Assembly: GCA_008933835.1 (NCBI GenBank)
Contig: WBUG01000029.1
Coordinates: 1-42,374 of the forward strand
Direction of reading: 5' to 3'
DNA: 42,374 bases
From: Bacteroidota bacterium
Lineage (GTDB): Bacteria; Bacteroidota; Ignavibacteria; UBA10030; UBA8401
The translations under genes and the position numbers were made by a program. Below the pieces are notes generated by a model. The model did not search any database. It was not told the DNA's origin and worked only from the letters and a program-made list of their open reading frames with translations. The stretch's first letter is position 1. Every line of letters begins with the position of its first letter. This document shows positions 27,147 to 29,315 of the stretch, in pieces.

Positions 27147-27201
27147 CAAGATACGATGGACAGCCGTCGTGCTCCGTACATTTTACGGGGAGAAATGTAC
27201 A
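27147..27201 (-). promoter_or_regulatory. Predicted copper-responsive operator and promoter of copZ-copA
   Basis: A 26-bp element (27176-27201) has a perfect 8-bp inverted repeat, GTACATTT (27176-27183) and AAATGTAC (27193-27200), around TACGGGGAG. Exactly 22 bases downstream on the minus strand is TATCTTG (27153-27147), a -10-like box resembling Bacteroidota TAnnTTTG. No -35 box is seen; the operator covers that position, as for AraC-type activation. The same arrangement occurs at 28505-28559. Confidence 0.7.
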
Positions 27202-27205
27202 TCGG

Positions 27206-28474
27206 TCATTGCACGTGCAGATAGATCTGAACGCCAAGGGGTGCGGCACCATAACGTTCGCGCAGGAACGGACCAGCGATGGACAGCGTCGCCTGCACTC
27301 CCCCGTCGACCCGCAACGGACCGGCGGAACCGATACGGTGACGGAGACCGACCGAATGCTGCCGGACCCGCTCCGTGACCGAACTCTCGCTGCTGATGCC
27401 GAACTCTGCGCGGCTCTTTTCCACCCATTCGTGGCGGCTGTACAGGCCGGCATCCCGGAGCCGGTATGAAAGTTCGGCCAGATAGCTGTCCAGGACGGAA
27501 CCGTGAGCCGTATTACGGCCCCAAATGATGGTCAGCGTGAATGGAGCATCGTGATTCCGTCCGTTCGATTGCTGGAAAGAGGCGGTCAACCGGTCGACCG
27601 TCTCGTCATGCCCTTCCGGATCGTGAAGACGGCCGGACGATATCTGAAAGACCGATCCCGTCATGGGCCGAACGGTCAATCGCCCGCTATAGGAATCGAG
27701 TTTCAACCTGTCGAACCTGAAGCGGTCCTCATCCGGCTCGCGTCCGTTGAACCATGAGCCTTCCAGCGACCAGTCCCGGAACAGAAGGGCCGCGGTGACG
27801 ACGCCGAACGAGATGTGCGTCGCATCCTGCCAATGGTGACCGATCGGTGCGTCCGGATTCATCGCCGCGCTCGGCCGGTGCATGAACGGTTCCGGACCGA
27901 GCGCCGGCGCGCCGGGGTACCCCGCGGAGAACATCAGCGCGACGCCGTTCCCCGTTTCATGCCTCACGGCCAGCGACAGCTCGGAGATCAGGTCGTGCGG
28001 ATGCTGCCGGTCGACGAGCCGCCGCCGGTTCCAGGTCTCACCGGACTGGAACAAGAGCGGATAGCCCTCTCCGCCGTCGGTCACACGGTCCAGACTGAAC
28101 ATCGCTCTTCCTATGACCTGCGTCCGTCCGTTCACATGGTACCGAGCATCGGTCATGACCCAGTTCGGGATGCTCCATTCCTCATACGCCCGGGGTCCGT
28201 CATGCCGGAGGTACCGGATGAAGACGGAACCGTGAGCGGAGAGGTCCCATTCCGACGGAGCATCGTTCCGGAGTGCGTCGGCATGGTGATGCCCGTACGA
28301 AGGAGCGTCCAACGGCGGGACCGAATCGTTCTCGACGGCGGCGGGAGCATCGGCCGAAGTTCCTCGGGAAGGATGGTGATGGTGGCCGTCGGCTCGCCGG
28401 CCGGACGAGTCGATGGCCTGTCCGAAGACCGGCGATATCAGCAGAAGCGCGGCAAGGAAGGTTCTGGATTGCAT
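27206..28474 (-). CDS. His-rich predicted outer-membrane beta-barrel protein of the copper locus
   Basis: 422 residues, start ATG 28474. Signal peptide MQSRTFLAALLLISPVFG. The first 60 mature residues are rich in His (RADGHHHHPSRG, SYGHHHADALRND), a likely metal-binding segment. The remainder alternates polar and hydrophobic residues in short strands (WSIPNWVMTDARYHVN, QVIGRAMFSLDRV, FTLTIIWGRNT) and ends LGVQIYLHV, resembling an outer-membrane barrel. RQHPHDLISELSLA and PFMHRPSAAMNPDAPIGHHWQDATHISFG are further His-containing blocks. I do not recognise a named family. It lies between the copper chaperone and the HMA-AraC regulator, with its own copy of the operator, so a role in outer-membrane copper handling is inferred. 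Confidence 0.75.
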   Translation of the reverse strand: MQSRTFLAALLLISPVFGQAIDSSGRRADGHHHHPSRGTSADAPAAVENDSVPPLDAPSYGHHHADALRNDAPSEWDLSAHGSVFIRYLRHDGPRAYEEWSIPNWVMTDARYHVNGRTQVIGRAMFSLDRVTDGGEGYPLLFQSGETWNRRRLVDRQHPHDLISELSLAVRHETGNGVALMFSAGYPGAPALGPEPFMHRPSAAMNPDAPIGHHWQDATHISFGVVTAALLFRDWSLEGSWFNGREPDEDRFRFDRLKLDSYSGRLTVRPMTGSVFQISSGRLHDPEGHDETVDRLTASFQQSNGRNHDAPFTLTIIWGRNTAHGSVLDSYLAELSYRLRDAGLYSRHEWVEKSRAEFGISSESSVTERVRQHSVGLRHRIGSAGPLRVDGGVQATLSIAGPFLRERYGAAPLGVQIYLHVQ

Positions 28475-28504
28475 CTCGGTCCCTTTCACGGTGATTGATG
28501 GGAC

Positions 28505-28559
28505 CAAGATATGTCTCCTCCTCCGCCCAACCGTTACACTTTAGCGGGGAAGATGTGCA
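28505..28559 (-). promoter_or_regulatory. Second predicted copper-responsive operator and promoter
   Basis: 28534-28559 aligns without gaps to the copZ element at 17 of 26 positions, with arms TACAC...GTGCA and a shared GCGGGG/ACGGGG centre. TATCTTG (28511-28505) follows exactly 22 bases further on the minus strand, about 30 bases before the barrel gene's ATG. Operator sequence, spacing and -10 box are therefore all shared with 27147-27201. Confidence 0.7.
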
Positions 28560-29196: not shown

Positions 29197-29315
29197 TCGT
29201 TCTCTCCTTTTCGTCGTTCCGCAATATACCGGTTTCTTTCCGACGCATCAACGGGTCGCGGGACTTGAAAGTGCATCAAAGATTGAGTACGATAATGAGA
29301 GAACAGGACAACGAC

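Follow-up and report, generated by a model that had tools for sequence, protein, structure and literature searches.

The copper locus and its two predicted promoter modules

The copper locus of the window (the whole stretch of 42,374 nucleotides that was analysed) lies on the minus strand and follows the order HMA-AraC regulator, barrel gene, copZ and copA (Table 1). The copA gene starts 13 bp past the stop codon of copZ and its product matched the copper-translocating P-type ATPase model TIGR01511 above the cut-off. For copZ the best NCBIfam matches were CopZ, under the equivalog cut-offs. The barrel protein matched no Pfam or NCBIfam family; its structure model is a beta-rich barrel of moderate confidence (pLDDT 69).

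Table 1. Genes and predicted regulatory features of the copper locus
Feature	Position	Strand	Description
copA, Cu(I)-exporting P1B-type ATPase, 745 aa	24646-26883	minus	Pfam E1-E2_ATPase/HMA
copZ, Cu(I) metallochaperone, 69 aa	26897-27106	minus	Pfam HMA 3e-10
-7 box of the copZ-copA promoter, predicted	27153-27147	minus	TATCTTG; 22 bp 3' of operator copy 1
Operator copy 1, predicted	27201-27176	minus	TGTACATTTCTCCCCGTAAAATGTAC; 5' of copZ
Half-sites of copy 1	27201-27196 and 27180-27175	minus	TGTACA and TGTACG; 21 bp apart
Barrel gene, 422 aa	27206-28474	minus	His-rich N-terminus and predicted outer-membrane-type beta-barrel
-7 box of the barrel promoter, predicted	28511-28505	minus	TATCTTG; 22 bp 3' of operator copy 2
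Operator copy 2, predicted	28559-28534	minus	TGCACATCTTCCCCGCTAAAGTGTAA; 5' of the barrel gene
Half-sites of copy 2	28559-28554 and 28538-28533	minus	TGCACA and TGTAAC; 21 bp apart
HMA-AraC regulator gene, 207 aa	28573-29196	minus	N-terminal CopZ-like and C-terminal AraC-type DNA-binding domain
Regulator's own promoter, predicted	29222-29251	minus	TTG (29251-29249), N20, TATATTG

An earlier note on this DNA had described two related 26-bp elements, one upstream of copZ and one upstream of the barrel gene. Both are present, although we counted 18 identical positions out of 26 and not the 17 that had been given. In both copies the element is followed on the minus strand by the same gap of 22 bases and then by TATCTTG, as the window sequence confirms. 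In the 42-kb window this box is confined to these two promoters, with one occurrence at each, and that of the barrel promoter lies about 31 bp ahead of the ATG. The perfect 8-bp inverted repeat reported for copy 1 (GTACATTT-N9-AAATGTAC) is there as well.

In the window, a position weight matrix (PWM) scored the two elements at 22.4 and 14.3 bits, the next best place reaching -2.1. The sequence-only model R2 was trained on 57 sites from relatives, those of the window being excluded; because sites from genomes of the window's family are among them, R2 is independent of the window itself but not of its relatives. Searched against the whole 3.57-Mb genome at E<=10, R2 returned two matches only, which are the two elements noted before: copy 2 was the top match of the genome with 18.4 bits (E 0.0086), and copy 1 followed with 14.1 bits (E 0.19). 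A sigma-70 promoter scan gave a single weak match (27209-27180, 9/12) that overlaps element 1 and none at element 2, and a sigma-70 promoter at the element was rejected on these grounds. An RNA element or riboswitch was likewise rejected since an Rfam search of the element gave no match.

A regulator with a CopZ-like and an AraC-type domain

Sequence profiles of the regulator match domains of ATP7B and CopZ as well as AraC-type domains. The Pfam family HTH_18 was matched above its cut-off (1e-14), and the search for Pfam HMA (PF00403) gave no match in the regulator. Since the relation of the N-terminal domain rests on profile and fold comparison, we name this domain CopZ-like and do not call it a member of Pfam HMA. 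In the structure model (mean pLDDT 82) a ferredoxin-like domain is joined through a linker helix to an AraC-type DNA-binding domain. The N-terminal domain shows the beta-alpha-beta-beta-alpha-beta order of a ferredoxin-like fold with a CxxC motif, and a fold search retrieved CopZ (2qif) with a TM score of 0.77 by target length. The C-terminal domain contains the double helix-turn-helix of AraC/XylS proteins; the fold search retrieved 3oio for it (TM 0.81), and also MarA, SoxS and AraC. The N-terminal motif NMVCxRC is invariant in 25 of 25 aligned relatives, with both C24 and C27 invariant.

The predicted promoter of the regulator gene itself carries a TTG at -33 in addition to TATATTG, in contrast to the two target promoters, which are devoid of such a TTG. 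This internal contrast supports the view that TATCTTG is a genuine -7 box and that the two target promoters depend on an activator. No operator was found upstream of the araC gene of the window, where the best score was -22.8 bits, and autoregulation in this genome was therefore rejected. At the Pontibacter loci an operator is present upstream of araC.

Architecture and position of the predicted operator in relatives

Loci with relatives of the HMA-AraC regulator were collected (110 in number), and 102 distinct loci were scanned with an operator-only matrix, each locus being left out in turn. The PWM was restricted to sites scoring 27.5 bits or more; a 14-bit threshold had drifted into AT-rich background. 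The best site was located 40-180 bp upstream of the start of araC, copZ or copA and on the same strand in 64 of the 102 loci, and 2.75 would be expected from the fraction of sequence that falls into such 40-180 bp intervals. In most relatives the element lies just 3' of the regulator stop codon, with copZ or copA following approximately 80-105 bp later.

In the logo of 63 sites, positions 1-6 and 22-27 each form a half-site T-R-T-A-A-C with AT-rich sequence between them; a spacer almost without information and, at position 49, TA-nn-TT(T)G follow. An offset of 21 matches 5.1 of 8 columns of this logo and any other offset at most 4.0, as for a tandem direct repeat near the promoter of the kind found with AraC/XylS proteins. 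Tandem half-sites 21 bp apart are a known arrangement for AraC-type dimers (araI1-araI2), and the 21-bp repeat of TRTAAC is thus what would be expected for a dimer of this type. The inverted repeat that the earlier note had pointed out in one copy did not hold up as the conserved architecture: on average 3.1 of 8 arm positions agree with it across the 63 sites, whereas the direct repeat reaches 4.6 of 6, and the inverted-repeat reading was rejected. The long inverted repeat is perfect in one of the 63 sites, namely copy 1, and is a fortuitous peculiarity of that copy.

Downstream of the 64 sites TAnnTT follows after 22 bp in 43 cases and after 21 bp in 13, with at most 5 cases for each other distance, a statistic that is partly dependent because the model by which the training sites were selected contained the box and was seeded on the 22-bp spacing. 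Matching spacing was also found at loci outside the training set, for example L012, L042, L060 and L077. The shorter spacing of 21 bp characterises a subset of sites at L096, L101, L098 and similar loci. A TTG at -33 spacing (N17-22 from the box) was found in none of the 63 sites, with a mean of 5.7 in shuffled sequences, and the claimed lack of a -35-type box therefore extends to all of them. The operator adjoins or overlaps the -33 region at a fixed distance from the -7 box. This combination of a fixed 22-bp spacing and an absent -33 box is the class II pattern that had been suggested for the window, and it is kept across the family.

Co-occurrence of predicted operator and regulator

In a sample of 395 genomes drawn from the Bacteroidota phylum, the regulator was detected in 180 (E<=1e-20) and the site in 120 (E<=0.01). 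Of the 180 genomes that carry the regulator, 113 also have the site, versus 7 of the 215 that lack the regulator (Fisher p about 1e-41, a value that is overstated because the genomes are related; for about 20 or more of the 113 there is an overlap with the training sites of the model). The copA gene was found in 336 of the 395 genomes, and at least 156 regulator-free genomes consequently carry it. Within the window's order the copper locus holds a site in 8 of 8 regulator-bearing and in 1 of 9 regulator-free genomes; in two of the former, G097 and G228, the sites at the copper locus are below the genome-wide threshold. Altogether 67 of the 180 regulator-bearing genomes have no genome-wide match at E<=0.01, some of them, such as the two just named, having weaker sites that are lost under the stricter filters. 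The scan of related genomes, which the earlier note had proposed as a check, thus shows that the motif is kept, along with the regulator, 5' of copZ or copA and 5' of barrel homologues, and that it is largely missing from genomes without the regulator.

One genome (G004) has a strong operator-promoter before copZ (L141, G004:C33:24968-25024), and an HMA-AraC gene was not found there; the gene either lies in an assembly gap or was recently lost. In another genome (G059) a divergent regulator beside the site was rejected as a candidate: it belongs to the ordinary AraC-type proteins, lacks an HMA domain and has non-copper genes as neighbours, so that this genome was counted as regulator-free.

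Predicted target genes

Homologues of the barrel protein are encoded in 14 of the 395 genomes. In 6 of these, the window counted, a site with E<0.01 lies upstream of the barrel homologue (L143, L146, L147, L149, L152 and L153), and at L106/L146 regulator, site and barrel gene follow each other as in the window. The protein has many residues (W, H, D and R) that are invariant across the phylum. We regard it as a candidate outer-membrane copper protein and a likely recurrent member of the copper regulon.

Other sites precede genes for CusA/CzcA-type RND pumps (L125, L130), for proteins that combine an HMA domain with a membrane part (L116-L118) and, in Pontibacter (L055), for a CDF exporter, names which were assigned by reading the sequences and not by family search. 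The same operator, with TACCTTTG, is found again kilobases 3' of araC in Pontibacter (L055 12321, L037 9647, L063 11555, L044 10238, L042 10398). Single genomes of family f30, for instance G296:C6 (L119), hold as many as 10 operator matches; several of these fall within one 30-kb stretch, which suggests a larger copper regulon there. Several extra sites were also seen in Flavobacterium-like genomes, where their targets are mostly unassigned.

Proposed mechanism and alternatives

On the basis of the sequence comparison, both elements are very probably operators of the adjacent HMA-AraC protein, which would act as a copper-dependent class II activator of copZ-copA and of the barrel gene. The earlier note had named the same protein for this function, and the conservation of the sites, their spacing and their co-occurrence with the regulator are in agreement with it. 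We assume that a dimer, or two tandem subunits, would occupy the two TRTAAC half-sites, whose distance of 21 bp corresponds to two helical turns and would place both subunits on the same side of the DNA helix. The downstream half-site takes the place of a -33 box. With the protein bound there, the housekeeping RNA polymerase would be kept at the TAnnTT(T)G -7 box, which follows after 22 bp, and the fixed spacing would enforce the contact between protein and polymerase. Transcription would presumably start shortly behind this box. Activation is most likely triggered by binding of Cu(I) to the CopZ-like domain with its invariant CxxC, by which the protein would be switched to its activating form. 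The copZ-copA pair and the barrel gene would be induced separately, and the regulator would be transcribed from its own complete -33/-7 promoter. Across the phylum, such an arrangement of site and regulator probably serves to turn on copper export.

Other explanations of the two elements can be conceived. The HMA-AraC protein could be a copper-relieved repressor that blocks the polymerase at the -33 region, and the downstream half-site does overlap this region, where a bound protein could also have a blocking effect. A blocking protein would, however, not need the strict spacing of 22 or 21 bp to the -7 box, and a promoter freed from it would be weak with the -33 TTG missing in 63 of 63 promoters. 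AraC-family proteins are, moreover, mostly activators, and we consider repression unlikely. That the element is bound by another copper regulator of the CsoR, CopY, CueR or CusR type, with HMA-AraC a mere neighbour, would account for the site before copZ in G004, where no HMA-AraC was found, and the inverted repeat of copy 1 superficially resembles a CopY- or CsoR-type palindrome. Against this stand the co-occurrence of the site with HMA-AraC across the phylum and the conservation of a direct repeat instead of the CopY palindrome TACANNTGTA or a CueR-type dyad, which make a different regulator very unlikely.

The fixed distance between element and box would also be expected if the element belonged to an alternative-sigma promoter, or were an RNA element, and not an operator. 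Yet the half-sites precede the box by approximately 27 and 48 bp, which is too far for a -35 element, and the box itself is of the usual Bacteroidota type TAnnTTTG, similar to that in the regulator's own promoter (TATATTG, with TTG at -33); an RNA element is at odds with the negative Rfam result and with the position of the element upstream of the predicted start. Either possibility is extremely improbable. Chance or shared ancestry of intergenic DNA without any function deserves practically no credence: an ancient duplication, for example, could explain why the two copies in the window agree at 18 of 26 positions, but it would not explain the phylum-wide conservation of half-sites and box around a spacer almost without information, nor why 64 sites instead of 2.75 were correctly positioned in the leave-one-out test.

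Comparison with known systems

AraC-type activators and HMA domains are each well known. A literature search, with subscription papers outside its scope, gave no description of an HMA-AraC copper regulator or of its operator, and within this literature the statement that the site had not been described before stands. A 2024 analysis of Bizionia argentinensis reported MerR-type and CopY-type proteins that lack the known copper-binding sites and left AraC unmentioned (PMC11213822); how Bacteroidota sense cytoplasmic copper therefore appears to be open. We think it likely that the operators belong to a previously undescribed, phylum-wide copper regulon, in which a CopZ-like-AraC activator, a 21-bp direct repeat and a fixed distance of 22 bp to TAnnTTTG would also govern RND pumps and the barrel gene. 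The finding offers a concrete sensor, operator and promoter geometry, from which target genes could be predicted from sequence alone, and the regulator would be an AraC-family activator with a metallochaperone fold as its sensor.

The predicted targets, a Cu(I) export ATPase and its chaperone, are those of CueR (MerR family), CsoR and CopY. The DNA-binding fold is unrelated to that of these regulators, and the operator, which lies 5' of the -7 box, is a direct repeat. The CueR site is a dyad placed between -35 and -10 boxes; such a MerR-type dyad, with the two boxes 19-20 bp apart, was not found at the sites described here, where the operator lies wholly upstream of the unconserved 22-bp spacer; CsoR is a repressor. 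The operator of CopY is TACANNTGTA (PMC7253601), a palindrome that is absent from the site consensus. With CopZ and other HMA metallochaperone domains (2qif, the ATP7B domains) the N-terminus of the regulator shares the ferredoxin-like fold and an invariant CxxC-type motif, NMVCxRC, but in the regulator the domain is fused to a DNA-binding domain and does not reach Pfam HMA. The AraC/XylS class II activators (AraC at araI, MelR, RhaS, SoxS/MarA) correspond to the proposed system in their AraC-type DNA-binding domain, in tandem direct half-sites 21 bp apart by the -35 region and in a fixed spacing to the -10 or -7 box. They differ from it in their sensor, which is a cupin there and a CopZ-like HMA domain here, in the promoter, which is of the Bacteroidota TAnnTTTG type here, and in the ligand, which for the HMA-AraC regulator is presumed to be Cu(I).
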